Assembly (NCBI GenBank): GCA_947179485.1
Contig: OX359246.1
Coordinates: forward strand, 73,683,508-73,747,507
Direction of reading: 5' to 3'
Origin: Allacma fusca
Lineage: Eukaryota > Arthropoda > Collembola > Symphypleona > Sminthuridae
DNA length: 64,000 nt
The notes beneath the pieces are model-generated. The model was given only the letters and a program-made list of their open reading frames with translations, was not told the DNA's origin and did not search any database. How positions within the stretch are numbered: position 1 is the stretch's first letter; each line of letters begins with the position of its first letter. This document shows positions 8,260 through 44,800 of the stretch, piece after piece. Made by a program: the position numbers and the translations under genes.

Positions 8260-8268
8260 CATTCTTTA

Positions 8269-10602
8269 ATGACGGATCTTTCCTTTAAATTGTTCTACAA
8301 AGATTCCCCGTGGATTCAACCTACAACTGATCGTCTATCAGTACAAATTTATCCAATTTATCCAAACCTCCCACAATTTCAAAGCTGTATTTTTCACTTC
8401 CTGGAGCTGGTACCAGACCTTCTTGAGTACTCGGAAATCACGACTTACGAAAACAACTATTATCCTCTGGTAATTTCTTATCCGCTCAAACCGTTTTTCT
8501 TTCATACAAATGATACGCTGTTTCTGTCAAGGTCTGACCAACCCTTCCAGCTAAACATAATTGCAAGGAGTGTAAACTGCTTCGTTAATTTCTTGATAAC
8601 AAATTCTGTTACTACAAGCACTTGGCTACAATACGCAAATGCCAGAGGGAAAAGAGATGTCTTCGGCATTGGGGGATACTTCCCCTCGGGAAGCTCTTTC
8701 TGGGAACGGTACAAATTCAAAAGATCTCTCAACTTTCTTGTTACGGACAAGTATTATCCTCATGATGAGAAACGAACAGGGCTCCTGGGGCCAATTAGAG
8801 CCGACGGAATTCCAACAATAGTATTGCTGTACGACAAAACTACAGCTTTAAAAACTTCGAAATTTGGCACAGTACCATACAGTATTCCCGCATCGATATC
8901 TCTGTACGGGACTCAATGTGACAGTTGCGAAAAGAACCACGAATTTAAAATACTCTTGTGGGAACAAAATAAGAAAGAAGGATTCGAACGCTTCGGAAAC
9001 ATTTTGCAGATTATTGACCACATCAGTGAAAATGGCAAGGACATTTTCTGGGATGGAAACATTGAAGGCGTCGGGAAAAATCCTTTTGTTTTGGAAGAAA
9101 AATGCTTTCCACAGTTTCCTTGTATAAGCTCTTTGAATCCAAGAAGTAGTCCGTTTGGAAGGTTTCTTCCAGTGTTTCGGTACATTTCGGTTCCCTTAGG
9201 TTTTTGGGACGGTCTCAATTATACCATGCATGATTGGCTTAATTTCAAAACTCAGTTTTCGAAATTCGAACCAAGTGTTAATGAAGGGAGTAGATTATCG
9301 AATGTAATGAAAACATACTATAACTGGGAGCTTTACATTCCGGAATTCAACGTTGGTGGATTCAGATTTATGACCTCAGATCCTGTGATGCCTGTCGCAT
9401 CTGCGTTTTTGTTGACTAAACCATTTCAAACGAGCGTCTGGGTTGCTGCTATATTTTCATTTGTAATCGCTATAGTCATTACAGTATTTAGCCAATGGGT
9501 GACGGTCAAATCGGAATGGAAAGAAAGTACTGCATCGGTTGTGGCTTGGTACTCTAGAGCGACCTTGGAGCAATGCGACAACGAGCTTATGGCAAACACG
9601 GCTGGACTGAATAAACATTTCATCTATCGTTTATTGTCTGCAATCTGGCTTCTCACTGGAATCGTGCTCATTAATTCTTATAAAGGCATAGTTAAATCTG
9701 ACTACACTATTCAGCACCCATTTGAAACGAAATGGCAGTGCTTTCATGAGTTGGCAGAATTTAAGTTATTTTCCGTCCTGGATGATGTAAAATGCTTACA
9801 ACTTCAGCATTATCAGTATTCCGACCCCGATTATGAAGACGACGTCGAATTTAGAGGAGGAAGTTCTATTTTGGAATACTGCATTGCTTTCGACAGTTTT
9901 GATCTTATTTATATAGCAACAGAAATGATTCAAAATAAGAACGAAAGCAGGATTCAGAATGTGAAATTTGAACATCTTTTGAAAAATCTGAAGGAGGAGT
10001 TAGAATATGTCTGTTACGACGATTTGGAGAAAGTGATTTTAATGAATCTCACCAAACCTAGCACCGCATTTATATGCAAAGAGACCGATTGCAAGTATTA
10101 TTGGAGCCAATTTTTAAAAAAATCCAAATCCAAAAGGATGCCGAAATTCCATCACAATTTCCAGTCAAGCGACTCCTTGAAAACTGAGACGTTTCCGTAT
10201 ATTTTTGTATTCCCCATAAGTTCATATTTTAGAAACATACCCTTACAACGTCTTACTGCAATTGTGGAGACTGGCATTTACGGGCTGTGGTTCAAATGGG
10301 AGGCGATTAGATTCAGAAGGTACAAACATTTTAAGGCTGAAAAGCTTACAAATGATGCCGCTATCAATGATTTTCAGCCCTTATCTTTTGATTCATCGGA
10401 CATTGTGGTTATATTCTACCTTGATCTTCTTGGATTGGCTGCTTCTAAAATAACTTTCTGGCTTGAGGTTATTTCTAGCGTCACTTGCGTAATTAAAAAA
10501 TCGCCGTTGTTATCAAGTATTGACAACAGGATTGATACGGGAACAATTGAAAAAGTAAATGAAGATTATGCATCCCCAGCAAACCAAATCCTGATGCTGT
10601 AA
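8269..10602 (+). CDS. divergent ionotropic receptor (variant ionotropic glutamate receptor)
   Basis: Single-exon ORF of 777 residues. Three membrane segments are spaced as in ionotropic receptors: about 390-411 (VWVAAIFSFVIAIVITVF), about 449-475 (FIYRLLSAIWLLTGIVLIN, followed by SYKGIVKSDYT, the usual post-M3 pattern) and about 708-735 (FYLDLLGLAASKITFWLE). The large N-terminal half and the stretch between the second and third spans would form the ligand-binding lobes. Such receptors act as ligand-gated cation channels in chemosensory or internal neurons. The ORF itself has no break. However, its signal-peptide leader lies upstream behind an in-frame TGA, so the protein as written would start at an internal Met and lack a signal. 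Either a null allele, a young pseudogene, stop readthrough, or a sequence error. A decayed tandem copy lies 1.3 kb upstream. Confidence 0.8.
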   Translation: MTDLSFKLFYKDSPWIQPTTDRLSVQIYPIYPNLPQFQSCIFHFLELVPDLLEYSEITTYENNYYPLVISYPLKPFFFHTNDTLFLSRSDQPFQLNIIARSVNCFVNFLITNSVTTSTWLQYANARGKRDVFGIGGYFPSGSSFWERYKFKRSLNFLVTDKYYPHDEKRTGLLGPIRADGIPTIVLLYDKTTALKTSKFGTVPYSIPASISLYGTQCDSCEKNHEFKILLWEQNKKEGFERFGNILQIIDHISENGKDIFWDGNIEGVGKNPFVLEEKCFPQFPCISSLNPRSSPFGRFLPVFRYISVPLGFWDGLNYTMHDWLNFKTQFSKFEPSVNEGSRLSNVMKTYYNWELYIPEFNVGGFRFMTSDPVMPVASAFLLTKPFQTSVWVAAIFSFVIAIVITVFSQWVTVKSEWKESTASVVAWYSRATLEQCDNELMANTAGLNKHFIYRLLSAIWLLTGIVLINSYKGIVKSDYTIQHPFETKWQCFHELAEFKLFSVLDDVKCLQLQHYQYSDPDYEDDVEFRGGSSILEYCIAFDSFDLIYIATEMIQNKNESRIQNVKFEHLLKNLKEELEYVCYDDLEKVILMNLTKPSTAFICKETDCKYYWSQFLKKSKSKRMPKFHHNFQSSDSLKTETFPYIFVFPISSYFRNIPLQRLTAIVETGIYGLWFKWEAIRFRRYKHFKAEKLTNDAAINDFQPLSFDSSDIVVIFYLDLLGLAASKITFWLEVISSVTCVIKKSPLLSSIDNRIDTGTIEKVNEDYASPANQILML

Positions 10603-15760: not shown

Positions 15761-16181
15761 GAAAAAAAATATTGAAATTTTGGACGAACGATAAAAACAC
15801 AAATAACGAAATTTGTTGTGAATATTGCTGATGTAAATCGAAATGGCTACTGCTTATGTGGTTGAAATCGGCCCATTTTTTTGAAAACAATTCTGAAATT
15901 TTGAAAAAAGCTCAAATTCATCCTACTTTGACGGTGGTGGCTGACGGCAACCTTCAATGTCAGGGTTTTTGCTTAAATAATTACAAGCTAATTACATACA
16001 TATTTGAAGGCAAGCCGGTGACACAGTTCGAGAAATCCAACAGTATAATTTACTTTTTGAAACCGGTTTTGAGACTTCATATCCACAGCAAGGGTACATA
16101 GGAACCATCCAACATTTTCCTAGTTTTCAGTTTTATTTTGCCTTTGAAAGTCTCAAGTTCTGGACATATCTCAAAATAATT

Positions 16182-19100
16182 ATGGCCGTCACAAGTATTT
16201 TAGTTCTGGTCTCATTGGGAGTGCTTCTATGGCAACTTTTAAAGAAATCCAGAAGTGATATTTTCCTTCAAAGATTTTCTGGTCCCAGGAAACTACCATT
16301 TCTTGGCAATGCTTGGTTTATAGCTAGGCCAACCGGTAAGTTTTCCAGTTTTTAACAGCTAAGCTAATTGACACATTGCACGAATACTAATATACTACCT
16401 TTATTATAGCGCACACAAATATTTCAATTACACATATTTCCAGCTCATGTCTTTGACTTCGTTGCTGTGTAGGGCAAAGGTGTCCACATTGATTTACCTC
16501 CCTAAATTCCTACGTATTTTTATAAGCTTACAGGGAAGCCTACTTACTTAAAATTAATAACCTATTATATTTCCTACAAACATACATGCAGCTATAATTT
16601 AGACTGTACAGGCCTATTTTGTAGTCTATAAAATAACCTTTTGGATCCAAAACAAAATATTTAAATTTTTATTTGCAGTCAACTTTAGGACAAGTGACAT
16701 CTCCTTTAAATCTTTTCTGAGACTATTCGAGGGATTCAGAATGCTTCGCTACATAGTTTTTGTTCAGGTTTATTATTATCTAATATTTGGAACAATTTAA
16801 AATTACTATCAGTTTTTAGATTAAAATCTAAAATTAGTATTTAGGACTAATTTGGTGAATATAGGTTCAGAATTTTAAAACATATTTTAGTGGACGCTTC
16901 AAATTTCCGATATACATATAAAACAGGTCCAATGGCACGAGCAAGGAAGGTAAAGTAAGGTAGATGTGACGTGCTCGAGTAAAAATGGTTCGCTTGATAA
17001 ACACAACGTAACCTAATAATACATACTTATAGTTCGCCTGTCATATGCCCTAACCAAAAGAACTAAATGTCAAAGTTTTGTACAGGTGAAACGGGCAATA
17101 TAACACACATTCAGGGTATTTTGGGCTTGGCAAGCACTTTGATCACGCCATATTCAAAATTCCAGCTCTAAATGCATAAAATATTTTCGAATTCCTGGGG
17201 CCCAAAATATGCCAGTGTTTGAAGATTTTTCTAATAATTATTTTTCAGAGCGGCTTAAAAACTTACAAATTCTTCAGCAGGAGTATGGCAATAGAGTCGG
17301 TATGACTTTGGGATCTCAGAAAATGCTCACAGTGTTCCATCCCGACGATGTAGCAGTAAGTATATTTAATTCTCAAACGACGGAGAGTGAATTTGCTATG
17401 CCATATATATTCAAACAAGTGTTAGATGTTATACAGAACTTCCAGGAACAGAGTCCAGAAATATTATGAAGTCTCTTCACTTCTTGATTAATAAAATCCT
17501 ATTTACAGAAAGTTTTAGCATCAAAAGAAATGAACAGGTCTTGGTTTCTGGAACTGTTGTTTACTGATTGGCTCGGATCGACATGTTTATTAACTGCTAA
17601 AGGTATTTCATCAAACAATTTCCAGTTGTAAAAATGTTATAAGTGTACAAATTGTTTTCTTAAATGTATGCAGGCAAGGAATATTTAAGAATGAGGAAAA
17701 TGTACCTACCCATGTTTTCGTACATACACTCTGAAAATCTAGAGCTTAATTTCAATACTCATTCGAAAACCCTGCTGTCAGTTTTGAAAAAGGAGGCTGG
17801 TAAAGGGGCGGCTGTGGAAGTTCGTTGGCTCCTAACTTTATGCACATTGGATAATATTTCACGTAAGAATGGCACATGTCATATGAGTATAAATGAAGGA
17901 TGCCCTGTATTCTTGAATAATTATTTTTCAGGATGTAGTGTTTTTAATTGTGATTTTCAGAATACTTCCTGGGCAAAAGCATGGGATGTTTAACCAAATT
18001 CGACAATGAATATCCGGCAGCTGTTCATAAGTAAGGCTTGCATTGGGCTTGTGCCTCTTCTAGTATTTTACGCAATTTCGATCATCTGTAATGCAAAAGA
18101 CAAGATTAGTAAAAAGGATTACTAAATGAGGACATATTGATTGTACAATCAAATATTTTCGGGGATTCACATGTAAAGCAGCTATGTATGGGAGACATTT
18201 TGTAAACGAAATGGTATATGTAATTTCAGTGAGACTAAATTAATTAACCAACGCATTTACCTGCCCTGGTTGTGGCCCAAAGTTTGCTGGAATATTTCAT
18301 CAATTGGTAAGAAGGAGAAAGTGATCAGGGAATACTTGCAAGATTTCATGGATAAGGTAACAAGTAAATTAACTGATTGTGAGTTAGATGCATAATCGTC
18401 TAAACGTATAATCGCCCAAACGTACAGGTTATTTAAACGCATAAGGTAGCAAAATGTATCGTAATGCACAGGTAAATAATATTGACATTCGTTTGAATAA
18501 GATGGTATTTCAAGTCAGGGATTAAAACAATGTTTGGCGTTCTCTTTAATTCATTCCCTTGCAAGAGGATCGTCGTTAAATGTTAACGACACAAAATTGT
18601 CTATTTCATATGCTTCTAGATGCAATTTGAATAAAAGGAACATAATCTATACGTACAGGCGGTACAGGCAATGTGTACAGGTAAAATCAGATTGTGTGTG
18701 TTGAGTTTATACGTTTAGCTTTTATACGTTTAGATTTTAGGCGTTTAGAGGTGTAGTCGATTATTTATCCAATGTAAAATTTGGTTACTGTAATATCCCC
18801 ATGCATTTTTAAGGAAAATTATGTTCCACAATAAAACAACAACATGTATGGGGACGAATTTAAACAACTGGAATCCGTTAATAAATTTCCATGTTCATTT
18901 CAGGTCGTTCAAGAGAGGAAGTCGGAAATTTTTACAAATACTCCTGACATTAGTGTAGAACAAATGAAGGATAAATTTCAAAAGACAGGTAATTAAAAGA
19001 ACTTTGTTATATTTTTGAGTTTCACCTATTTTGTAAACACTTTTCTTCATGCAGGTTTAGATTATTCTCTGTCGGAACAACTTGGAGGAAACACTGAGTT

Positions 19101-20189
19101 TACGGATAGGTATATCCGAGACCTCATGAATTCCTGTATATTAGCTGTGAGAAATCAGTTTTTCTTTATTTCAAGACGTTTTGAAATTTCAAAAATTTTA
19201 CATTAATTCACGGGTGCATGCAGTTACATTCATTTATATTTGCAATTTTAAATAAGGGGCACGATACAGTTGCGGCAGGTCTTACCTTTGCCCTGTATCT
19301 GCTAGCAGCAAATCCCAAGGAGCAGGTTAGTGTTTTCATCCATGTCAATTTTAAACGCAAATTTCGTCAAACAAGAACGTTTGCTTTTTATTAGAATTTT
19401 CTATAATCTGGAATAATAAGTTTTGATTAATAGGCCAAGCTGCACGCTGAATTGGATGAAGTTTTTGGAAATGATCGGGATCGAAATGTGGAATCATCCG
19501 ACTTAACAAAGCTTAAATTCCTGGAATGTTGCATCAAAGAAACAGAGAGGTTGTATCCTCCGATACCCATCATGCCCCGAACGTCGGAAAATGACTTTGA
19601 ATTAGGTAATGACATTTAATTCCATGATAAATAGTTGTATTTAAGAAGTCTATTGGCGTGGTTAATAATTTAAAATAATTGATAGATAAGAACTGCGTGG
19701 TACCCAAAGGGGTGGACATTGTTGTATCTCCATGGGTCACCCACAGACTCCCAGAATTTTTCCCAGAGCCGGAGGAGTTCAGACCTTCGAGATTTTTTCC
19801 CGAAAACTGTACGGGAAGACACCCTTATGCATATTTTGCTTTTTCGGCAGGAGTGAGGATCTGCATGGGTAAATTGAACTATTTTATTAAGCGTCATTAT
19901 TTGGGACATAGTTGTTCACTTTTTTAAAAAAGAATATTTTGTTAGACCTCGAAATGTTTTAAATAGACGAACGACGTGCAAGAACTAAAATTATTTACAA
20001 AAAATGTAAAGTCCGGGATGTTTGTTGACAGGGATTAAAATTGCGATTGTGTTGGAAAAGATCATTCTCGCCGATATATTTCGAAACTTTACCGTCGAAC
20101 TGGAAGATCCAACTCTGAAGGTGGTTCCAGTAGGAGATATTGTTGTGTTTCCGAGGGATGGACTGAAGGTCAAGCTCAACCCGCGTTAA
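16182..20189 (+). CDS. cytochrome P450, clan 4 (CYP4-like), complete, 12 exons
   Basis: Exons: 16182-16335, 17249-17355, 17509-17602, 17674-17862, 17961-18030, 18230-18356, 18904-18988, 19055-19146, 19257-19325, 19434-19605, 19686-19868, 20032-20189. They sum to exactly 1500 nt (499 residues), the usual P450 length, with every junction GT-AG and in phase. An N-terminal membrane anchor is followed by the Pro/Gly hinge [13 protein letters not shown], the I-helix GHDTVAAG (307-314), ExxR as KETER (Glu365-Arg368), the PSRF meander and the heme loop [10 protein letters not shown] with Cys446 as the iron ligand. Clan 4 enzymes are microsomal monooxygenases, often fatty-acid or xenobiotic hydroxylases. 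All catalytic motifs are intact, so it should be active. Intron 6 (548 nt) holds a word-array repeat. A poly(A) signal lies at 20424-20429. Confidence 0.92.
18388..18775. repeat. word array (TAAACGTATAA / TACAGG) inside a P450 intron
   Basis: Short words TCTAAACGTATAATCG, TTATACGTTTAG and GTACAGG recur in both orientations at the two ends of this block. The ends are loosely inverted (ATGCATAATCG near the left, CGATTATTTAT near the right). No clear target-site duplication was found. It is probably a small degraded transposon of the same word-rich type seen elsewhere in the window. Confidence 0.45.
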
Positions 20190-20551
20190 ATGTTGTCTTT
20201 ATGAATAATAGTGGTCGGAACGGTTCAGTTCAATATACATTCGGAACTGAATGCAATTAAATCTTGTTTAAACCAATATCAAACTGAAAAATGTGGTGTT
20301 TTGCTATACCATTTGGCTATATAAGACATTTTGCAGCTCTTGGTTCTGGTTTTTGTTGCAGGAAGCCTTCATTTGTTATTTTCAAGGTTTTCATGTTTTA
20401 AAATTTTATGGTCCAAACCCAAAAATAAACATTTTGTACTCCTCAGATTAGTTTGATTAGTGAAATTATATAAACTTGTAGGGTCTGTCACCAGAATTTG
20501 TGCAGGATACTATTTAGTTGCATATATTTGAAAAAAAAACAAGTTTTTGCC
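20190..20551. other. 3' flank of the P450 gene
   Basis: Presumed 3' untranslated region with AATAAA at 20424-20429, then AT-rich sequence. Nothing else seen. Confidence 0.5.
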
Positions 20552-22568: not shown

Positions 22569-23025
22569 ATATCGTCGGCGAAACTTGCTAACCGGTTAAA
22601 ATAAAAAATGCTTAGAATGCAGACCGGCTATTTTGCGTTGTCGCTTAATACTGAAACCAGCCATAATTCCCCCATTTCCCTCAACCTGACCACACCTTCC
22701 GCTCCCCTTGCACTAATCCACACGTACTACCCATCTATACTCTCCATCCCATTATTTCCCCTCCACTACCCCTCCACTACCCTCCCACTCCCCCTCCGAT
22801 TTCCCTCCACTTGCCCTCCATCACCAGTCCACTTCCTTTCCCCACCTTTTCCACACTACTTCCCCTCCACCTCCAGTCCACTTCCAGTCCACTTCCTTTC
22901 CCTTCCATTTCCACACCACTTCCCCTCCCCTCCACCTCACATTCAATTACATTCCCCTCCACTTCCCCTGCCACTAACCCTGCAATTACATTCCCTTCCA
23001 CTTTCCCTCAACTTCTCTCCAATTC

Positions 23026-23275
23026 CCCTCCGCTTCCATTTCAATTACATTTCCCCTCCACTTCCATTTCAATTTCATTTCCCTCCACTTCCATTTCAAT
23101 TACATTTCCCCTCCACTTCCATTTCAATTACATTTCCCCTCCACTTCCATTTCAATTACATTTCCCCTCCACTTCCATTTCAATTACATTTCCCCTCCAC
23201 TTCCATTTCAATTACATTTCCCCTCCACTTCCATTTCAATTACATTTCCCCTCCACTTCCATTTCAATTACATTT
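23026..23275. repeat. 28-bp tandem repeat, about nine copies
   Basis: Unit CCCCTCCACTTCCATTTCAA plus TTACATTT, nearly identical between copies, lying in the left arm of the foldback element. The right arm carries related but not identically phased purine-rich words, so this array expanded after the palindrome formed. Confidence 0.9.
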
Positions 23276-23317
23276 CCCTCCACTTCCCCTACAATTCAAT
23301 ACCCTTCCACTTTCCCT

Positions 23318-23475
23318 CCACTTAACCTACAATTCATAACCCCTTCACTTTCCCTCCACTTAACCTACAATTCATAACCCCTCCACTTTCCCTCCACTTA
23401 ACCTACAATTCATAACCTCTCCACTTAACCTACAATTCATAACCACTCCACTTAACCTACAATTCATAACCCCTC
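23318..23475. repeat. tandem repeat with ACCTACAATTCATAACC core, about five copies
   Basis: The core TTAACCTACAATTCATAACC recurs five times at 37- and 27-bp spacings; the longer units contain an additional CTTTCCCTCCA segment. It lies just left of the centre of the foldback element. Confidence 0.85.
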
Positions 23476-24438
23476 CACTTACCCTCCACTTCCTCTTCAA
23501 TTAAATACAGCGGAAGTGGAGGGGACGTGGAGGGGAAGTGGAGGGGAGGTGGGGAGGAATTGGAGGGTAATGTAATTGAAATGGAGGGGAGGTGGGGAGG
23601 AATTGGATGGTAATATAATGGAAATGGAAATGGAGGGGAGGTGGGGAGGAACTGAAGGGGAAGTGGAGAGGAAGTGGAGGGTAATGTAATTGAAATGGAA
23701 GTGAGGTAAGGTGGAGGGGAATGTAATTGAAGGGTTAGTGGTGGGGGGAAGTGTAGTGGAATGTTATTGAAATGGAAGTGGAGGGGAATGGAAGTGGAGG
23801 GGAGGTGGAGGGGAATGAAAGTGAAGGGGAATGAAAGTGGAGGGGAATGGAAGTGGAGGGAAAGTGGTGGGGAATGTAAATGAAATGGAAGTGGAGGGGA
23901 ATGTAAATGAAATGGAAGTGGAGGGGAAGTGGAAGGGAAGTGGAGGGGAAGTGGAAGGGAAGTGGAGGGGAAGTGGAAGGGAAGTGGAGGGGAAGTGGTG
24001 GGGAAGTGGAGGTGAAATGGAGATAAATTGGAGGGGAAGTGGTGGGGTATATAATCGAAGGGGACGTGGAGGGGTATGTAATTGAAGGGGACGTGGAGGT
24101 GTAGTGGAGGGAAAGTGGAGGGGTATGTAATTGAAGGGGACGTGGAGGGAAAGTGGAGGGGTATGTAATTGAGGGGGAAGTGGAAGGGAATGTAATTGAA
24201 GGGCAAGTGGAGGGTGAGTGGAGTGGCATGTAAGTGAATGTGAAGTGGAGGGGTAGTGGACGGGAAGTGGAGTGGAATTGTGGAAAAGTGGGGGTGTACT
24301 TCATTCCACTTACATGATATACTGCTAATGTGATTTATGGCCGAGTTTCACTTTAGAGTTTGTAGCGAAAGCAAAATAGCCGGTCTTCATTCTAAGCATT
24401 TTTTATTTTAGCCGGTTAGCAAGTTTAGCCGACGATAT

Positions 24439-25278: not shown

Positions 25279-28200
25279 TCACACCTTTTTCTGACAATGT
25301 TCATTGTAACTTCCGTAAATCTGATCTTCCTGATTAACCTTCGACTGAAGATTAATAAAAAAGCCCTTGCATTCCGACATGGTTGGTCTTTTCTCCGGTT
25401 CATTTTGCCAGCAAATGGTCATCCAATCAAATCTGCAAAATGAAGGGAAAAGATTGACAAAATAAAACACTAAAGTCTTGAAATGAAATACTATTATTTA
25501 CAAATTCTTACACTTCTGGAGTTGCTTGTTGAGGCCTGTTAAGTCTGAGTCCGCCCTCAATTTCGTTGGCAAATTCCGGAGACCAAGTTAAGCCCGCATA
25601 GGGGACTTGGGCAAAGGAGAAGATTTCCCAGACTGTGACCCCAAGGCTCCAAACGTCGGATTGGGAAGAAAATTGCATGAAGCGTAAGGACTCGAGAGCC
25701 ATCCAACGCCAAGGTAACGGGGCCTGTTACCAAAAATACCAAAACGTTAGTGTACTGAAGTAGTCCAGTCTCAACAGCGTAAAGTACCCCTCTTACTAAT
25801 TCCGAGTAATCCTAAAAGTCTCCTAATTTTTTATTATATTTGTTGTACAGGGTCAAAATATTAAAATCACAAAACCATATGAGTAGGAATGGTTTAAGTT
25901 CTAATGTGACAAAATACATTAATGTACCTGTTTTTCTTTGACGTAATTCCCACATTCATAGAGCTTCCTAGACAGTCCAAAATCCGTGATTTTTACGACG
26001 TTGTTGGGAAAGACCAAGACATTTCGGGTTGCCAAATCTCCGTGAATTACCTTCAAGTAAACAGTTTAAAAAATAATGTATGGCCTAAATTTTCCCACAA
26101 TTACGGAAGCTATCTAAAGGATGGTTATTATCTTCCGGACCCCCCCCCCTCCAAAGGTTAAAAGTAATTACTTATAGTGATCTATTAAATATTTAAGCTG
26201 CATTATTATGGGTCTAACTATGCTCTGAAATATTTACCATTTAAAATTATTTTACATTTTTGAGCTCATAACGCTCAAATACAAGAACAGCATACGTATT
26301 GTTAAAAATGGATTTGTTTAAGCTGTGTTAGCCGTTATATCCGAAAATTATTATTGCAGCATTTTCGGGGATGACTAGCTGAAATTTTACCCCGGAATAC
26401 TTATGAAGCATTTTGTTTTAAAAAATGCCAATTTTTAAAATAATTATGACATTTACCTTTTTCTCAGCAAGAAAAGCCATTCCAGTAGCAATTTGGTTGC
26501 AAAAACTGGTCAAGATGGACTGATTGAGTACCAAGTGGGCCTCACAGTCGGGACTGAAATTGCACATTTTTATCCAAATTACCATTCTGTTTTGAAAAAT
26601 ATCTCTTTACAGATAATAATGAGTGTTATTTTCTCGAACTTACATCTCTACCGGGATTTTCTTCTCTGATTTCTCTGACATTGAACCCGCGTAATTTGTA
26701 GCATAGTCTTTCAGGTAGTTGTTGAGATTACCGTGGGGACTCAGTTCAAACACAGCGAAGCAAATACCTTTGAAAACATGCCACACTGACAATGAGTTAA
26801 AGATTTTAAAAAAGGTATACTTCTTAAATGAAAACTAGCCATACAGTGCACCACAATAACTTTTCACCCCAAGCAAAAGGGGGGAAACATTAAATTTCTC
26901 TGTTTTGTTATCAATTTTCTGACATATATTTTAAAATCATGGACATTAATCTGGGTCAGTATTTGCGGTCTCAGGTGTTCAAACCTTAAAACAAAGTCAG
27001 CATAAATCATTTCAAAATTAACCATAAAATTTCTGATCACCGAAACAAATTCTATCCCAAAATATACATACGTTGACTGAGGGAAATTTGACGGACTTCA
27101 CATTCTGTTACGATTTTTAAGTTATAAGGGTAAGAACTTGAAATAAAAACAGAATTAAATAAGATCTAAGAAAATATTTTTGGTAATACTGGACTTGTAG
27201 GAAATTTGACGGTAAATTTTGAAAATACTCGTCAATATCCAAATTCTAAAGCTGCAGGATCCCCAGAAATTTGAATTGAAAATTTTACTTCCGTGTAAGA
27301 AAGCGTTTTAAAATTTTGAGACCTAAAAATTCCTGGTTATAGTTTGTCTGTCTATACATAAAAACGTAGTTTAGGAAGCTTGAATATTACAATTTAGCAA
27401 TTATAAGGCTATATTTATGAGTAGAGTTTCTTTAGTATGTTTTGTCTTACGCTTCTGGATTTTATCCACGACGGCACCATGAAAATAGACAATATTTGCA
27501 TGCTCTCCAATGAAATTGATGACTTTAATTTCCTTCAAGAATGCTTTGAAATATTCCACATCTGCATTGGGCTTGGTTGTCTTGACTGCAACGGGACTTC
27601 CATCCAGTGTTCCCCTGCAAACCACGCCATACTCACCAGATCCCAACACGTCCTCAGCTGGATACCACAAAATTCACATCAAATATTTTACTAGTTACAT
27701 AAATAAAGCAATCCCAAGTCGCCATAACAGATTTCTCTCCATAATGACACTTCCCCCGACTCAAAATGACAGTATTAACACCTGTGAAAGTTATAAATAA
27801 AAAATTGATTTTAAATATTTTTTCGCAAATGAATTTCCTGACACTTACTATTTGTTACTAATCTGTGCTGTGCAATAGCTTTATCCTTGGAGAATCCTAA
27901 GGCCTCTATCATCACTTCTTCCTCATCCCCTTCTGTGTGAGTCTTGATTCCATTGAAGAATTCATCGACCTCGTACTTGGTGAGATTCCTGATGATTCCC
28001 TACAAAAAATATTTTTAATTATAAACTTCCTTGTTATAGAGGCAGTGGAGCCTATGAATACAAAATTAGTTAATTCTCTCAAGCTACTATAAGCAGGTGT
28101 AACTTGTAACATGTGTTCAGGTAATCTGCAAGGGGGTAGAAGTATAAGCAGTTTAAAAATTGAACTCAGATCCAGTACCTTTGATGTGTGGTACTTCCAC

Positions 28201-31200
28201 CAAAACACCAAAAGGGATATGGCCAAGACTAAGAATAAAACTACAGACACTCCAATGCTAATGAACTGGATAATTCCCAAGGGCTCAGCTGAAATTCAAA
28301 GGAATAAAATCCCGATAGGTCATATAATGATTATATCAAATCCGACTCCTGGTACTGGACCCTGTCGACACCAGCATCCCAAAATAGGGGAATATGTATC
28401 TTGGGAGGTGTCACGTCCAGGAAGGTAATTGTAAGCGGACCAGGTCAAGATCCAATTCATCTTTACCTATGGTATCAAACGTTTTTGTAGAACTGAAGTA
28501 TTTGCCGGTGTCAATGGACGGGGCTTCGCAGGAGATTTGTTTCGCATCTATGCTCAATTGCACTTCCATTGTAATTTTTTTGGTCAGTTTTTCTTCGTCG
28601 GGACGTGATTTATCATTGTACTTCCTCAATCTCGGGTCTCCGGAATTTGGATCTATGTACATCACACCACAGTAATGCATATTCAATTGACTATGTGACG
28701 TTGTATAGATTCACGTTTCTACAATAGGGACTTACCTAATTCCGTGGGTGTATCATCCATCCCGTATTTAATGTAAAACCGGACGTATGGCATGAGAACG
28801 AAGGTTGAGATCTCACACTCAACTACGTAAAACTGATTTGCTATTTTATTATCCGAGGTTTGAAATCCCACGCGGATTGATTCGTTCCCTTGGAAATTGT
28901 CTTGGAAAAAATCTGGATTTAACAATTTTATATTACATCTTTGTAGCAATTTTTCTTGCCAACGTTTCAAGGGAGGAAGGTGGAAGAAATTTTCCTTGAG
29001 GAGCTTAATAATAGCTGAAGCAGTGAATAATTATCATTTATGACCCATTCGGGATAAACGCACCTCTTGGGGCAAGAATTCCTTCATCAAGGGTTCTTTT
29101 TTGGAATACCGGGATTTTATATAAAAATTAACAAACTTCCTTACGTGCGTTCCCAAGGACTCCCTGGAACATATAACCCGACTCGTACATGTAGCCAAAG
29201 ACATTGGGCTGATTATATGGAGAGAAGATTGCAGTGCATTGGACAAAACCATGAGTAAACTTGAGTCGTTTCCTGAGAAACATATTGGAAAAATGCATTG
29301 AGACTTTTCTAATCATAAATGGAAAAAGTTGTCACAGAAATGATCCGGAGAATCTTACGTGTGAGTTCTATTAATGTTAATAAATTGATCCAGCTCCGAC
29401 TTGAGCGGGTACTTATGCTCTACGAACGAAACCTAAAATTAAAATAGCAGCATGTAAATTGATTTTTAACAAAATTAGTACAATAATTATTATCATCTTC
29501 GGAATTTCCAGGGGATCTGATTTAAGGAAACAATTCCGGTACGATCGAGTTGACGGTTCTGCTCAAGATTTCTTAACCCAATGGGACAATAACTTTACGG
29601 TTATTTATTAATGCACTACATGAAAAGGATTTTTTTTAAATTATTCACTTACGAAGGGCTTCATGGGCTTGTAAATAAGGTCACATTCCGTGATAGAGGA
29701 ACAGAGCCCAATTTGTAAATTCGTGTTATGCAATTCTTGCATCGGCTCGCAGTAAATCTGGATCTTCGCCGGGTTAGTATTGTCAAGGGATAGTGATGCA
29801 CGAACTCTTCGTTCTGGATAACAAAATAAAAATCCCCAAAGTTGTGACATGGATCTAAAGCTTCGGAAGGGAATCCAACGGACATGATTTGACCCACCTT
29901 GTCCATCAAATTCTTATACGTCTTACCTTTAGCCAAAGGGGTCACGTAGAACAAGTTGTAGAGCAAGTTGGAGCATTCGTACATATTCTCAAAGTCGGGC
30001 AGTTCCTTGATTTTGAATCCCATTCGGGGGTCGAACGTACTTTTGTCCGTTAATATTGTGAAATTTTCTTCGGCCTGAGAATGGGAAAAATCATTATTTT
30101 CGTTAAAAGTTCATCATTAAAAATCATTACGAAATTGTGTAGTTCTCAAACAAACGGGTGAATTAAAATAAACTAAAATTATAATATAGATTCCCTCCGA
30201 CTGGAGTTATGAATGATGTTTACCATGTCATAGCAGGATTTGAACCGATCATAAATTGGTTTTTCCTCCTGATTTAACTCTCTTCCACAGCTGCTTTCAC
30301 CGAAATAAAATTGCTGGACGAAATCCTCGCAGGTCAAAATACCATCCCCATTACAATCCTTTCCTGAAGGTGGGAATTTCCTCATGTGACCATGAATTGT
30401 GCAAACGGAGCAGCCAAAGTTCTTCATGCAGTCGTCATAATCTGAAAGATGAGGATTTATTCAAACTCTGTTTACTCTTTTTGGGGCCCCCAAATCCAAA
30501 AATACTCTTATACCCATCCCATACTATGTATAATGCTATTGACTATATGGTGACCGACTGTATTTTGAAGAATCATGTAATTATTACCTTCAATTGGATT
30601 TGTCTCATTGTCCCATATAGGCTGGGGCAATGGGCCACACATAAATTTGGAAAAGCATGGGAAGGTGTCATTAGGGCAGTCCGTCTTTCCGAAACAGGCA
30701 CAAATGGCGCATTTCGCAGAAAATATCTGCGGAACAAAAATGTCATTCTTAATTAAATTTGCAGTACTAAATGTACGAAGGTACAAGGGATTCTTCCGTT
30801 GGGTCAACATTTTTGAGCAGCTTTTGCAGCTCCTTTGTAACTTGAGCTATTTTTTTATACTTGGTCCTATGTAAATAATTATATGCTCTTAGATATTATA
30901 TAAGGGGTCAGATAATGTTATGATATATGCCTCGGCTGAGCTGTTCCGTTTTGTAAGGGTCACGGTTGGATCGGCCCCGAAGGATTTGGCCGTGCAAGGG
31001 ATGATGTATTCCCCGCTCGGGTTTTTTTCGACTTCGAAATAATTCAAATCCTGCGTTTCAAATGGGACAAATTTGGGGTTATTTTTTCCGTCTGGTGAAT
31101 TCAAGAAGATCTCCGCAGCCAGGGTAGAGTTGTTAAAATATTCACAGCGTAATATTTTGCTAAAGTCCTGGGACAAATGGACAAAAATTTCTTGGGTGTA

Positions 31201-31690
31201 TTGGGCGGGGGCTGAGCCTGAGCCCATCCGATATGTTGTTCCTCCGTGGGTAATCCTACCCTATGAGGAAAAATAGGAGGAATAATCAAAATGGTAAAAA
31301 AATCCCAACCACAAAATCCTTCCCTCAAATATAAAGTACACATATCATGTTTAATGTATATATCATTCTTGAAAGGAGAAAGTACATGTTCCTGATTACC
31401 GTAGGCTTATGAGACAACCATCGGACTGGAGCCGTTGCTATGCACTTCAAATACAAATAGTCCCCCCTCGAAGTCAAGTTGACAGTATTGTTCCGAAAAT
31501 CCTTACTCAGTCCATTAAAGGCAAACTCGGAGGTGCTAAATTCCGTCACTTCGCCACAACTCTCGTAACCATCCCTATTGCGCCGGGTAAAGCATCCTTC
31601 AATTATAGGTCTGCCCTGGGAGCAAACCGTCCCCACGAAGGAAATTACGATGCTGAGTAGAATTATTATTCTTTGGGATTCTCTGGCCAT
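25279..31690 (-). CDS. receptor tyrosine kinase with Ig-like and i-type-lysozyme-like ectodomain (copy A)
   Basis: Eighteen exons, high to low: 31690-31400, 31260-30931, 30726-30588, 30441-30224, 30074-29927, 29813-29653, 29432-29359, 29272-29145, 28912-28736, 28652-28467, 28288-28179, 27999-27849, 27657-27451, 26767-26644, 26553-26457, 26050-25928, 25723-25512, 25432-25279; 3030 nt, 1009 residues, all phases consistent. Signal peptide 1-25; Ig-like region to about 207; lysozyme-like domain 208-326; further Ig-like segments (FDPRMGF, MYECS) to about 617; membrane span 622-648; kinase from about 705. The kinase is complete: LGSGEYG loop, Lys730, Glu747, HGDLATRN (Asp852, Asn857), DFG at 870-872, WRWMALES. 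The ectodomain style recalls the PDGF/VEGF receptor group. Exon 2 needs a GC donor (GAG|GCATAT). It should signal from the plasma membrane by tyrosine phosphorylation; ligand unknown. Confidence 0.88.
30224..30726 (-). other. i-type lysozyme/destabilase-like domain of receptor A (exons 3-4)
   Basis: Residues 208-326 of the receptor. The Cys order CxxCxC (213-218), C224, C231, C237-G, then [10 protein letters not shown] (258-267), HMRKF, KDCNGDG (281-287), TCEDF (290-294), C305 and C323 reproduces the spacing of arthropod i-type lysozymes, including their DCNGDxxxxCxDF signature and the final Cys-bearing helix. The acidic residue normally following CxC in these enzymes is Phe219 here, so muramidase activity is doubtful. 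The domain is carried on its own two exons, bounded by introns in phase 0 on both sides, which is the arrangement expected for a shuffled module. Confidence 0.75.
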
Positions 31691-32181: not shown

Positions 32182-33035
32182 CAGAGCTTCTGCCGGGGAC
32201 GGGGACGGGACGTCGGGACACTCGACGGACCGGGACGGGACGTCCCCGGGGACAAAATAATTGTCCCCATGTCGTATTCGGGACGGGACGGGGACAAAAA
32301 AAAATGTCCCCATTATATCGGGGACGGGACGGGGACAAAACAAATTGTCCCCGCTATATTCGGGACGGGACGGGGACAAAAACAATTGTCCCCATTATAT
32401 TCGGGACGGGACATGCTTTTTGGTTCTGTGTATAACGGGACGGGACGAGCAAGCATAGCAGAACAAGGATAACGTTTCAGCTTTAATGCTCATGAGTAAA
32501 CTATTCTGTGAACACTATTTCACCGAATGTAAGACATTCGATTTTAGGTTGTAGAAAATGAGGCTTGTTGCTCAAAAAGTTAAGGAAGAATCTTGGAGCC
32601 ACGATTCTATAAATGTGTTTTTTATGTCTTTAGTACAAATATTTTTTGTACGAAATTTTCCTCATGTTCCGATTTTCGGTTTGAGAATGTCGACAACTGT
32701 TTTCAGTAATTATTGGGACGGTACAGGAATTTTGTTCACATGCCACGATTTTCGGGACCGGGGACAATATTTTTTTTTAATTTTGGGGACGGGACCGGGG
32801 ACAACGTTTTTTAAAAATGTTGGGGACGGGACGGGGACAAGATTTTTGTCCCCATGTCCCGACTTTCGGGACGGGACCGGGGACAACGTTTTTATAATTT
32901 TTTGGGGACGGGACGGGGACAAGGTTTTTGTCACCGTGTCCCGATTGTCGGGACGGGACTGGGGACAAAGGTTTTGAAAAAATATCGGGACGGGACGGGG
33001 ACGGGACAAGAATTTTGTCCCCAACAGAAGCTCTG
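32182..33035. mobile_element. 854-bp non-autonomous hAT-like element, GGGACGGGGACA word type
   Basis: Terminal inverted repeat CAGAGCTTCTG, perfect over 11 bp, followed two bases later by GGGGAC at both ends. Flanked by a perfect 8-bp target-site duplication TGTGCCTC (32174-32181 and 33036-33043). The interior arms consist of GGGACGGGACGGGGACAAA words and their complements (TTGTCCCC), with a short unique core at about 32430-32700. No coding capacity. The intact duplication indicates a recent insertion. Confidence 0.88.
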
Positions 33036-38840: not shown

Positions 38841-41800
38841 CTAACACGCTGCATTGAGACTCCCATAAATTTTGTCGACCTGGTGCACCTTGGACTGATA
38901 ATTTATAAAAAAGCCTTGGCAGTCGGATAGGGTTGGTCTTTGGACTGGATCATTTTCCCAGCATGTCATCATCCATTCAAATCTGTAAGATTGAGGGTAA
39001 CATTTCTAGTCAAATCTTTCAGGCTGCTTGGAATTTTAAGGATGTGATATGTGTTCAAATTCTTACACTTCTGGAAGCACGTGCTGAGGCTTCGCAAGTC
39101 GGAGTCCGCCCTCAATATCTTCAACAAAGTCCGGTGACCAAGTTAATCCTGCAAAGGGGACTTGGGCAAAGGAGAAGATTTCCCAGACTGTGACCCCGAG
39201 ACTCCAAACGTCGGATTGGGAGGAAAATTCCATGTAGCGCAAGGACTCGAGAGCCATCCAACGCCAAGGTAATGGAGCCTAATTATATAAAGAAATGTGT
39301 TGAATAAATAATACTACAGTTAAATCTCACTATTGGATCACCTCTAAACATATTTATAAGATTGAGCAAATTTCCCTGTAGTCATCATGTTAACACTTGT
39401 GTTATTACAGGAGCACTTCCCTTATATATACTCTCTTATACATGCATTTTCCTCTTACGTTATGCTCACTTTTCCTGTAACATCATCCGTGTTTAAGAAT
39501 CAAAATATGACACTTAGTATGACGTTCAATTCTAAGGAAAACAAATTTAGTTTTAAATAGGATCGGAAGGAAATTCATTTAATATTCTGAAGACTATGGG
39601 GTGGGGTCTCCGATAATAATTTAAAGTTTATTTATGCGGGTGTTCTTGCAGGATAGTGAGCTCTAATGAACCACAAAAAGTACTGAGCACGAAAGAGTAA
39701 AACCAATGCCGTACGTTAGATTGTATTTAAAAAAAATGATAGCAAAAGGGTATTTACCTGCTTCTTTTTGACGTAATTTCCACATTCATAAAGTTTCCTC
39801 GAGAGTCCAAAATCCGTGATTTTAACAACGTTGTTGTGGAATACCAAGACATTGCGGGCAGCCAAATCCCCATGAATCACCTTCGAACAGAACAGACAAA
39901 ACTTTATCCTATATTTTCTAATCCAATATTTGATAAGGAATTTTGTTTCAGATTGTCTAAGTATCCGTCGTTGTAGGAAAATTTTTACAAAAGAATTTAG
40001 CAATGGTATCTGCACAGGTCAAAATTTGTACAGCATCTACAATCTAGTCCAAAATATGATGGTATTTCGAGATTTCATTTGAAAATACAAAACTTGTAAC
40101 GTTTAACTTCCATATTCAACCCCAAGGGCAAAACATATTCACTAGATTTACAAAGAAATATTTTTTCTGCCTTACTTAGCTATTTTAATCCAAAATGGAC
40201 AAACTTGTCTACCCAAGTCGGAAACCTTGGATGAACTTCCAAATGTTTGCTAAAAGTTTGGAAACGAAATATCTAGCCCTGTAAATTCATTAAGTTCATC
40301 ATTGTCATACCTTTTTCTCAGCAAGAAAAGCCATTCCGGTAGCAATTTGCTGGCAAAAACTGGTCAAGATGGACTGATTGAGTACCACTTGGGACTCACT
40401 GCCGGGACTGAAATTGTTTTATGAAAAATAATTATTCCAAAATCAAAGACGCAGCTTGTTAGTTTGTCAAACTGCTGTAAGTAAACTCATATATCACAAT
40501 CGGTATTTTTATTGATATTACAGCGGTGTCGGGGTTTTCTTCTGTGGTTCTCCTGGGACTGAACCAACGTAATTTGCCGCATAGTCCTTCAAGTATTTAT
40601 TAAGATTACCGAAGGGACTGAATTCAAACGCAGCGTAGCAAACACCTTTGAAAACATGAAAAACTCAATTATTAATGTAATATTTTTCAAAATAAAAAGA
40701 GTTTTTCATACATAAAACAGATCTTCTAAACCTGAAAGATGATTTGATGTAAAATATGGGGGACTGAATACTTTTACCTCAGGATTTACATTCTGTGCAT
40801 TTTTGCAAAAGGGAAATGTTTTTCCGTAGCCAGTACGTGGTTAAATAAATACACCCTTGAAATTGGTAATTTAATTTAAGCCTGCTGTCACAACCGGCTT
40901 CCTTTTAAATATGACCCAACTTACACTGCTGAATTTTGTCAACGACGGCTCCATGAAAATAGATTATATTTGCATGCTCTCCAATGAAATTAATGACTTT
41001 AATTTCCGTCAAGAAGGCCTTGAAATAATCTACGTCTGCATTTGGCTTAGTTGTCTTGACTGCAACGCAATGATCATCCAGTGAACCTCTACAAACCACA
41101 CCAAATTGACCCGTTCCCAACACGTCCTCAGCTGGATACCCAAAAATACACACACAAATTGTTACAATCCAATCGCTAGACTTTTTAATAGTAAACAAAA
41201 TACGGGATATCTTAAAGTACAACCTATGAGCATGAAATTACCCTAGTGTCCAAATTCCATTTTTAGAACATATAAAAACAACTAGTTTACAATAACTGAT
41301 GAGTTCTACAGAACCCACATCAAAAATCTTGATGACGGTTATAGTTAAAAATATTAGTTTATATACTTATAGAAATTCCTTGCATGAAACTTACAATTGA
41401 CTACTAATCTGTCGGTAGCAATTGCTTTATCTTTGGAAAATCCTAAGGCCTCTATTATGAATGCTTCATCCCCCCCTTCCCTCTGACTCTTGTCTCCATG
41501 GAAAAATTCGTAGACTTCATTCTTGGTCAAATTTCGAATGATGGACTAAAAAAATATTTTATTTATTAATTTCCTTGTTAGACCATAATCAAAGATTAAA
41601 TTAAAAAATGTTATTAACTTTCTTAAGTTATTAATTTTAAATTGTTAAATAATTTTAAATTAAGCAAAATTCTCAAAATAGGTTTTGGGAAGCCGTGGGT
41701 TTCAAAATGGACATTAAATGCATTACCTTTGACGTTACCCACTTCCTCCATAATACCAAAACGGAGGCCGCCATGACTAAGAATAAGATCACAGCTCCGA

Positions 41801-44800
41801 TAATAGCAATGTAAAACAAGACGCTCGGAGGCTCATCTGAAATTCGCAGGAATAAAATTATGGAATCAGTAATAATAATAATAAATAATGATTTTTTAAT
41901 AAACAGAGCTCAAAAAGGGTTGCAAATTTTGACTCGGCTAGCGAGTCATGTCAACAGAAATCCCTAGAACGACTCCTTAAAAATGCCACTTGTTTCCATA
42001 CCTTGGACGTCCAAGTCTAGTGTTGCAGTGGCCGGGTTGCCCGTGTCGATGGCGGGGGCTTGACAGTAAATAATGTCCATATCTTTTGTAACGTTCACCC
42101 TCACTGTAAATTTTCTGGTAGCCTTAGCTTTGTCCTCAGGGAACTCCGTGTAGTTCATTGCTTTGTCAGAAGCTTTGAATTGGATGAGTAATAAAAATAT
42201 CAATATATTTTAATCTACGCGAGAGTAGCTTCCTTATCTTGGAATCAAATCAACTGTAAAAGATCGAAATTACAGTGAATTCCAAACATGTATGGGAGTA
42301 CTCGAGAGTGACTCACTTAATTCCGAGTAAGGATCATCCCCCTTGTATTGAACATAAAACCGAACGGTTGGCAAGAGAATGAATGTTGAGATGGTACACT
42401 CAATCACATAGAACCGGTTTACTATTTGATAACCCGGTGAGTCAATTCCAATCGCGATTATTGACTCATTCGTGTCGAATCTACTTTGGAAATAGTCTGG
42501 AAAGAAAAAACAAACGAAAAAACAAATCGTATTAATTACATCATTTATGAGTAATTAGTTGCTTGAGGGAAAGGTGTAAGTAGATTTGGATGAGGAATCC
42601 GAGTCAAAACGTCTTGTGTATGCATCACGAGAGATCCGATCCTCCGAACGGATCTGCAATATTAGTATAGTACTGTCATATTTTATAAAATCTTCCTCAC
42701 GTCTTTGTCCATCTACTCCCTGGAACATATACATGGATTCATTCGTATACCCAAGAGTTTTGGGAAATTCAGCTGGATGGAAGATTGCAGCGCACTGGAC
42801 AAAACCATGAAGAAACTTGGGTCGAATGCTGGAAACACATTGTAAATGATTATAAGTACAAACCTCCAAACAAAACTATAATTGTCCTAAATGGAACCAG
42901 CATGTGTACAAAAAAATTATGAACTGGAAATGTTTACGTAGTAGTTGAATTTATAGAAAAAAATTGCTGCACATTAGAATTTCTGGGCTCCTCTTCTATG
43001 AAAGAAATCTGAAATAATTAAAAGAACATTATGACACTTATTCCATTACAATAAAATTAGTATTCCGTTACAAGCGATTCTCATAATAGTGGGGTCCGAG
43101 AATTTTGGCCCTTTTATAAAATCAAACTCTAATTAGCAGAATCTTACTAACAGCAAAGCAAGCTTTGACCCTAAATATATGACAATTATGTCTATAACAG
43201 AGAATGTAACTTACGAAGGGCTTCATCGCCTTGTACTTGAAGTCACATTCTGTGATGGAGTTACAGGAACCAATTTGTATATTCAAGTTGTGTACGGCAT
43301 CGTCAGGAGTGCAAGTTATCGAGGTTATGTCCGCATTATTAGGAGGAACTAATTTTGCTCTAATTCTATTGTCTGCAAATGTAAATAATAATATTATTAT
43401 AAAATTTGGGGGTTAAGTGCCCGAATTCATTGAGTGATCTGTTGGAGTCAGAGCTGGGAGTCCCAACAGACATGATTGATGACCCCTGAGTTGACCTCCG
43501 CACATGATATTTTTACCTTCGGTCACAGGGTTCATATAAAACACACTGTGAAGCGTACTGGAACATTCGTACATGTTCTCAAGATCTGGCTTCTCCCCTT
43601 CCCTTTGATGAAGTTTCAATCTGAATCCGATTCGAGGATCGTAGATATTCTTATCGGTTATTCTGGTGTGGTTCTCATCCGCCTGGGATTGAAAAATATG
43701 AGTATTAATTCCTTGTCAGTTAATTAATCATTCATTGTTTTGTTACCATAAAGAGAATCAAAATCAAATATATACAGTGTCCTCTGAGTCTACAAAGGCA
43801 CCCCTCAAAAAACTTTTAGTGATCCTCCTTCACAGAGAGAAACGCGAATTTGTTCTTATTTTGGGGAGAGTGTCCAAATATGGGTTTAAATGCCCCTGTC
43901 GGTGGTCACATCAGGGATATTACTAAACTGGAACGTTATAATGATATTAATAATAATTACCTGTTCGTAGCAAACTTCAAACCGTTCGAAAATTTCCTTC
44001 TGCTGGGGTTGTAAATCTCCGGTACAACTGTCTTCCCCGAATAGAAATTGTCGGGCGTAGTCCTCACAGGTCAAAACATTATCCCCATTACAATCCTTCC
44101 CTGTAGATGGGAATTTACTCATGTGACTCTGGACTGTGCAAATGGAGCACCCGAAGTTCCTGATGCAGTCCAGGTATTCTGAAACACGAGAATAATAATA
44201 ATTATTATAAATACGTTAAGTCAGGGGAAATCCAGGAAAAATAATTCCAAGAATCATTATTAGAGTTTAACATTTCCAGGATTTTCCTATTACAAATTTG
44301 ATTCAAATACCCTGCAAGGACAATACTGTAATTATTACATTCATCTTTATAGTGGAGTCACAGATGGGGGATAATATGATCCCCTATCCTGGACCCCCTT
44401 ACAACATCTTTTACAGGAGCTTCTTTGAGTTATCATTGGGGACAAACTTAAACTTAAATTATTTTAAATTCAACGGTAAATTAGTTAAATGTACTCTTTA
44501 CCGTCAATTGGATTCGTATTATTGTCCCATATTGACATGGACAAGGAGCCACAAATGTTGGAGGAAAAACATGGGAAGGTACTATTGGGGCACTCTGAGC
44601 TTCCGAAACAGGTGCAAACGGCGCATTTTTCGGAAAATATCTGCAAGTCAAGAAATTATTTAATTCATTATTTATAATAATGACAGCCTATGCTTAACTT
44701 ATAAATATTTAATTAATGTTGTCATTGACTAAAAGGAATTAAGTAGAGTACCGGGGCCTTGCTGTTCCGCCTCGTGAGGGTGACGTTGGGAAGAATCCCA

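Follow-up and report, generated by a model that had tools for sequence, protein, structure and literature searches.

Two tandem genes in the 64,000-nucleotide stretch of DNA analysed here (the window; C8:73683508-73747507 of the 393-Mb assembly of Allacma fusca, a globular springtail; Collembola, Symphypleona) are predicted to encode receptor tyrosine kinases whose ectodomains carry a module of the Destabilase, or i-type lysozyme, family. An initial annotation of the window had pointed to one such receptor. That observation is confirmed and proves to be larger than was proposed: the two genes, which we refer to as A and B, belong to an expanded family of Allacma receptor tyrosine kinases in which one slot in the ectodomain is occupied either by the lysozyme-family module or by DM9, a lectin-type domain. 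On balance we think it probable that the module in the slot is a non-enzymatic, ligand-binding part of the receptor, plausibly one that senses glycans or microbes.

The gene A model was assembled from conserved frames and splice sites, and its parts are listed together with those of gene B in Table 1. The frame runs through 1009 codons without an internal stop, and 16 of the 17 introns have GT-AG borders. The exception is the intron after exon 2, which has a GC donor (GAG/GCATAT); GC is a rare splice donor, and the corresponding donor in gene B is GT. Hydropathy of the protein indicates a signal peptide and a single membrane span, so that one frame encodes, in order, a signal peptide, an N-terminal region, the Destabilase module, more ectodomain, the span and an intracellular tyrosine kinase, which is the layout of a receptor tyrosine kinase. 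Pfam finds both domains in the full-length protein (Destabilase, E 2.3e-10; PK_Tyr_Ser-Thr, PF07714, E 1.3e-72). A database search with gene B as the query led to a deposited and unnamed Allacma fusca protein, P0001, which is identical to the gene A model at 1009 of 1009 residues and was deposited with both Pfam domains precomputed; its automatic UniRef name, 'lysozyme', hides the kinase. This agreement is the concurrence of two models, not transcript proof. Protein-database searches that depend on shared exact words returned 10 and 2 matches, and among these P0001 alone has both domains listed.

Table 1. Features of receptor genes A and B, in window positions
Feature	Position	Strand	Basis
Gene A, 18-exon receptor tyrosine kinase, 1009 aa	25279..31690	-	own model; identical to P0001
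Gene A exon 1: signal peptide and beginning of N-terminal ectodomain	31400..31690	-	model, hydropathy
Gene A exon 2: N-terminal ectodomain; GC donor at end	30931..31260	-	model
Gene A exon 3: Destabilase/i-type lysozyme module, first half; starts in phase 0, ends in phase 1	30588..30726	-	model, Pfam
Gene A exon 4: lysozyme module, second half, including EF-hand-like loop; ends in phase 0	30224..30441	-	model, Pfam
Gene A exons 5-10: membrane-proximal ectodomain, without Pfam match	28467..30074	-	model
Gene A exons 5-10 singly	30074..29927, 29813..29653, 29432..29359, 29272..29145, 28912..28736, 28652..28467	-	
Gene A exon 11: membrane span	28179..28288	-	model, hydropathy
Gene A exons 12-18: juxtamembrane segment and tyrosine kinase (K730, E747, D852, N857, D870)	25279..27999	-	model, Pfam
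Gene B, tandem paralogue, 18 exons, 1014 aa	38841..45562	-	model, Pfam, alignment
Gene B exon 3: lysozyme module, first half	44502..44640	-	model, Pfam
Gene B exon 4: lysozyme module, second half	43961..44178	-	model, Pfam
Gene B exons 12-18: tyrosine kinase	38841..41545	-	model, Pfam

Residues 208-326 of gene A, encoded by exons 3 and 4, match the Destabilase profile (PF05497) on their own with E 7.4e-12 and 46.0 bits (cut-off 26.2), over profile positions 2-116 of 116. The initial annotation had placed a lysozyme/destabilase domain at exactly these exon coordinates and had named a search of these residues against the family as a check, a missing match being the outcome that would count against it; the match lies above the cut-off. 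Among solved structures, a phmmer search with the gene A domain yields E 0.0011 for the leech destabilase 8bbu and just E 0.53 for 2dqa, while a profile built from 11 copies of the domain (nine receptor modules and two standalone Allacma genes) finds 8bbu, 4pj2, 3ab6 and 2dqa, all of them lysozymes, at E 2e-10 to 9e-9. PF05497 is matched by all 11 copies at E up to 1 (best 6.6e-39). Across the alignment of these copies ten cysteine columns are invariant and two more nearly so, and the Asp-x-Asn-x-Asp...Asp pattern of the EF-hand-like loop, which gene A carries in exon 4, is invariant in all 11. An AlphaFold prediction of P0001 run without an alignment has a mean pLDDT of 35.

The modules of A and B thus resemble the known Destabilase/i-type lysozymes (8bbu, 4pj2, 3ab6 and 2dqa) in their cysteine framework and in the full-length Pfam match, and they differ from them in several respects. 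First, they sit in a receptor kinase. Second, they lack the catalytic Glu. The third residue after the third cysteine is Glu in 8bbu, 4pj2 and 2dqa as aligned, and we take it to be the catalytic residue of i-type lysozymes; gene A has Lys there, gene B has Ser, and the remaining nine copies have Ser or Thr, so that Glu occurs in none of the 11; both standalone Allacma relatives (CICQAS) are among those without it. Third, the sequence after CGP is shortened in the receptor modules. The position of the second acidic residue (Asp), which depends on the alignment, is occupied by Lys in A, by Ser in B and by Asp or Glu in several paralogues; loss at this position is not uniform across the copies. 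Neither A nor B has the muramidase residue pair of catalytic Glu and Asp. Because the catalytic Glu is missing in all 11 aligned copies, muramidase activity of the module is unlikely, and as judged from its sequence the gene A module is a member of the Destabilase family by descent and no active lysozyme. We infer a binding domain without enzymatic activity that is held together by disulfides and may bind calcium; a module with a purely structural role would account for the missing catalysis equally well. The interpretation given in the initial annotation is upheld in part: the receptor tyrosine kinase with an i-type-lysozyme-family module is supported, and the suggestion that it senses bacterial wall fragments through a lysozyme-like site is weakened.

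The same annotation had read the rest of the frame as Ig-like segments, one membrane span and a catalytically complete tyrosine kinase, of which the span and the kinase are supported and the Ig-like segments are not. The catalytic residues of the kinase (K730, E747, D852, N857 and D870; the K, E, HxD, N and DFG positions) are invariant in all six aligned receptors. The catalytic loop reads HGDLATRN in A and HGDLAARN in B, the usual motif being HRDLAARN. Against solved structures, PDGFRA, VEGFR1/2, Kit, Ret and Flt3 lead the best 60 of 826 matches, behind a single EGFR entry whose score is the sum of two copies; among these best 60 the kinase is nearest to the PDGFR/VEGFR class (III/V). Gene A is therefore like PDGFR, VEGFR, Kit and Flt3 in kinase similarity (as the best PDB matches listed) and in its single span, and differs from them in its catalytic loop, in the lysozyme or DM9 module found in the ectodomains of its family, and in its lack of detectable Ig domains. 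No Ig family was found by Pfam in nine N-terminal or in seven membrane-proximal sequences (0/9 and 0/7), in a search in which the HMMER filters discard most matches above about 0.1, and the same sequences gave no convincing PDB sequence match. An Ig-like ectodomain is thus unsupported by the sequences, a strongly diverged Ig fold being conceivable, and A and B are not filed as class III/V receptors, since the Ig-domain ectodomain that characterizes that class is not found in them. The flanking ectodomain, whatever its fold, is common to all members aligned.

Gene B is like gene A in exon number (18), intron phases and domains (Destabilase, E 9.1e-12; kinase, E 4.7e-71), and the two proteins are identical at 600 of 996 aligned residues (60.2%). 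By the Nei-Gojobori method dN/dS between A and B is 0.27 in exons 1-2, 0.39 in the lysozyme module, 0.47 in exons 5-10 and 0.25 in the kinase, and all four segments look constrained, with the reservation that high dS makes these ratios rough.

The window holds several other features. Minisatellite arrays lie beyond the 3′ side of gene A (22756-24277) and between genes A and B (32247-33002). About 6 kb from gene B is an adaptor gene on the minus strand (51876-53509) that encodes two or more SH3 domains and one SH2 domain split over exons, which by eye is Nck/Dock-like; SH2/SH3 adaptors of the Nck/Dock kind act downstream of tyrosine kinases. A cytochrome P450 gene occupies approximately 16000-20200 on the plus strand (p450, E 4e-20 on the exon frame 19679-19924), and a 780-aa frame at 8260-10599 (+) is ionotropic-receptor-like, as judged by a Lig_chan match that is weak and stays below the cut-off (E 2e-4). 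A PIF1-like helicase frame (1557-3113, +; Pfam PIF1, E 1e-8), perhaps part of a mobile element, adjoins a frame without a Pfam match (412-996, +), and a single long open frame at 60809-62152 (-) encodes a CCCH zinc-finger protein.

With 68 of 87 candidates scored, comparison of the gene A ectodomain with the whole genome gives at least 44 matches, and by position these fall into 25 places containing exon 1 or exon 2. Thirteen of these places have the lysozyme module, intact or decayed, nine have DM9 just downstream, and three (C8:58.54, 58.66 and 61.89 Mb) are left unassigned, with DM9 lying 6 kb from the 58.54-Mb place. The Destabilase profile itself has 13 matches in the genome, which we assign to nine receptor loci and to two standalone genes (C8:37.59 Mb), one of which has a Gln-rich stretch ahead of the domain. 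Loci were modelled with a spliced aligner that uses splice-site weights from the introns of A and B, and with which the A protein recovered 15 of the 18 B exons exactly. The lysozyme module and the kinase are joined in spliced models of 17-18 exons, without signal peptides, at C10:60.73, C8:15.94, C8:6.03 and C8:6.23 Mb; three further ectodomains carry the module (C8:6.01, 6.05 and 6.08 Mb), their models stopping short of the kinase, and the diverged locus at C8:9.87 Mb, which also has the module, was read through to a kinase. Several copies look decayed: the locus at C8:5.86 Mb has an in-frame stop in the kinase, that at C8:8.66 Mb (read to the ectodomain) a stop in exon 5, and that at C8:15.96 Mb a module whose second half is unrecognisable. 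Not every copy is therefore necessarily functional. Long frames that by eye resemble mobile elements lie inside or beside receptor loci, including the one at C8:61.92 Mb.

The family may in turn be part of a larger receptor tyrosine kinase expansion, as at least 140 similar tyrosine kinase exon matches were found in the genome (116 of 556 candidates scored). Such exons lie at C10:55.3-56.3, C8:66.8-67.0, C1:43-49, C12 and elsewhere. The catalytic loop of one related kinase (C8:66836401-66843600) is altered to YRDLSARS, and no ectodomain exons, those of the N-terminal part included, could be recognised in the piece that was read; this kinase was not used.

The position taken by the lysozyme module, between exons 2 and 5, is filled by DM9 frames at each of three other places that were read (C8:61.92, 62.04 and 58.58 Mb). 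Each of the four DM9 frames at 61.92 and 62.04 Mb scores above the Pfam cut-off of 26.2 (34.5, 50.9, 36.0 and 64.5 bits), as do two of the three DM9 pieces at 58.58 Mb (46.7 and 44.6 bits; the third, 13.2); a spliced but incomplete model of the 62.04-Mb gene gives just 21.2 bits for DM9, under the cut-off. At 62.04 Mb, a single open frame of 598 codons runs through exon 1, exon 2, two DM9 exons and exon 5, with all internal junctions in phase 0, and the locus continues to a kinase. The lysozyme exons of A and B, normally two per module, are flanked by the same phase-0 introns as these DM9 exons. The two kinds of occupant are also distributed separately. Of 47 DM9 (PF11901) matches in the genome, those lying on the same strand and downstream by no more than 2 kb account, by comparison of positions, for nine of the 25 N-terminal-exon places; none of the 13 lysozyme places has DM9 within 2 kb among the matches listed, and Pfam finds no DM9 in the A and B proteins. 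DM9 exons thus fill in paralogous receptors the same phase-0 slot that holds the lysozyme module in A and B, and from this arrangement (one DM9 paralogue having been read through) we conclude that the slot very probably holds exchangeable modules, one exon-bounded slot being the simplest account of the sequences.

With the module left out, an unrooted tree of nine sequences places the 62.04-Mb DM9 receptor between A/B and the remaining lysozyme receptors (support 98.5/98), and an eight-sequence tree without the module gives the same placement; one DM9 receptor is included, and artefact-like stretches of two sequences were left out. A kinase tree rooted on fish VEGFR3 has support values of 27/43 and 25/42 and does not show which module came first, and a tree of the modules with the standalone lysozymes is weak.

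Intron positions bear on where the lysozyme module came from. The intron between exons 3 and 4, which is in phase 1 and lies just before the conserved DC motif, matches both standalone genes at C8:37.59 Mb in place and in phase, which suggests that the receptor module was captured from a lysozyme gene segment of the genome. The standalone genes differ from A and B in a further phase-0 intron before DCNGDG, which is present in both of them and in none of the 12 receptor modules whose models cover this part. They also have approximately ten extra residues after CGP..YW that are missing from ten aligned receptor modules (the diverged C8:9.87 Mb copy being a partial exception). The shared absence of the intron and of these residues is consistent with the receptor modules having arisen once.

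How might such a receptor work? If the module is, as we favour, a non-enzymatic ligand-binding part, it would bind a ligand outside the cell, ligand binding would pair two receptors, the paired kinases would phosphorylate each other (the activation-loop Tyr lying in NYVKEKQ), and signalling would follow this trans-phosphorylation. Exchange of the module would then alter what the receptor senses. The likeliest ligands would be glycans, or glycosylated microbial, food or self surfaces, because the DM9 family includes known lectins (the oyster DM9 lectins) and lysozymes bind glycans; by this analogy a glycan or microbial ligand is possible, and we regard it as somewhat doubtful. A bolder proposal, which we put forward tentatively and consider rather unlikely, is that these genes form a large springtail pattern-recognition family of receptor tyrosine kinases, with interchangeable sugar-binding modules (a dead i-type lysozyme or a paired DM9 lectin) in the exon-bounded slot, through which kinase signalling, and not only the Toll or PGRP pathways, would directly read microbial or dietary glycans.

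There are several other ways to account for these genes. The module could be an inert structural spacer kept by descent, with a PVF/PDGF-like protein growth factor acting through the flanking ectodomain. The PDGFR/VEGFR-like kinase, the presence of that ectodomain in all aligned members and the missing catalytic Glu would all suit such a receptor. However, an unrelated extracellular domain, DM9, fills the slot in paralogues, which better suits a variable sensing part, and the Ig-like domains expected to bind such a ligand were not found by Pfam in any of the sequences searched; we hold this to be a serious alternative, if an unlikely one. That A and B are decaying copies of a formerly useful receptor is very improbable. 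The stops or insertions at other loci of the family and the GC donor in A are in keeping with decay, but the frames of A and B are fully open (1009 and 1014 codons), all kinase residues are kept, and dN/dS stays at 0.25-0.47 in the four segments measured. More improbable still is an active peptidoglycan-cleaving or isopeptidase receptor, in which the kinase would report the product of the lysozyme domain: the Destabilase match is full-length and the cysteines are retained, but the Glu position, on which we reject an active lysozyme, is Lys in A and Ser in B with Glu in none of the copies, the part after CGP is shortened, and the alignment-dependent second acidic position is likewise Lys in A and Ser in B, though Asp or Glu in several paralogues. 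Finally, it is scarcely credible that a lysozyme gene and a kinase gene were wrongly spliced together in the gene model or the assembly, as the GC donor of exon 2 might hint, and we reject such an artefact since gene B and four other separate loci, read from the N-terminal ectodomain through to the kinase, repeat the order, phases and slot, and the deposited model P0001 is identical.

Receptor tyrosine kinases are well surveyed and have fairly few ectodomain types. An ectodomain with a lysozyme-family module, and more so a slot for either a lysozyme or a DM9 module within one gene family, would be a new design for these receptors, here found in a deposited protein that its automatic name, 'lysozyme', has kept out of sight. 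The slot would be a clear case of module exchange through phase-matched exons, and the family as a whole would connect domains of innate recognition with signalling by tyrosine kinases in a basal hexapod, a connection that can be tested.
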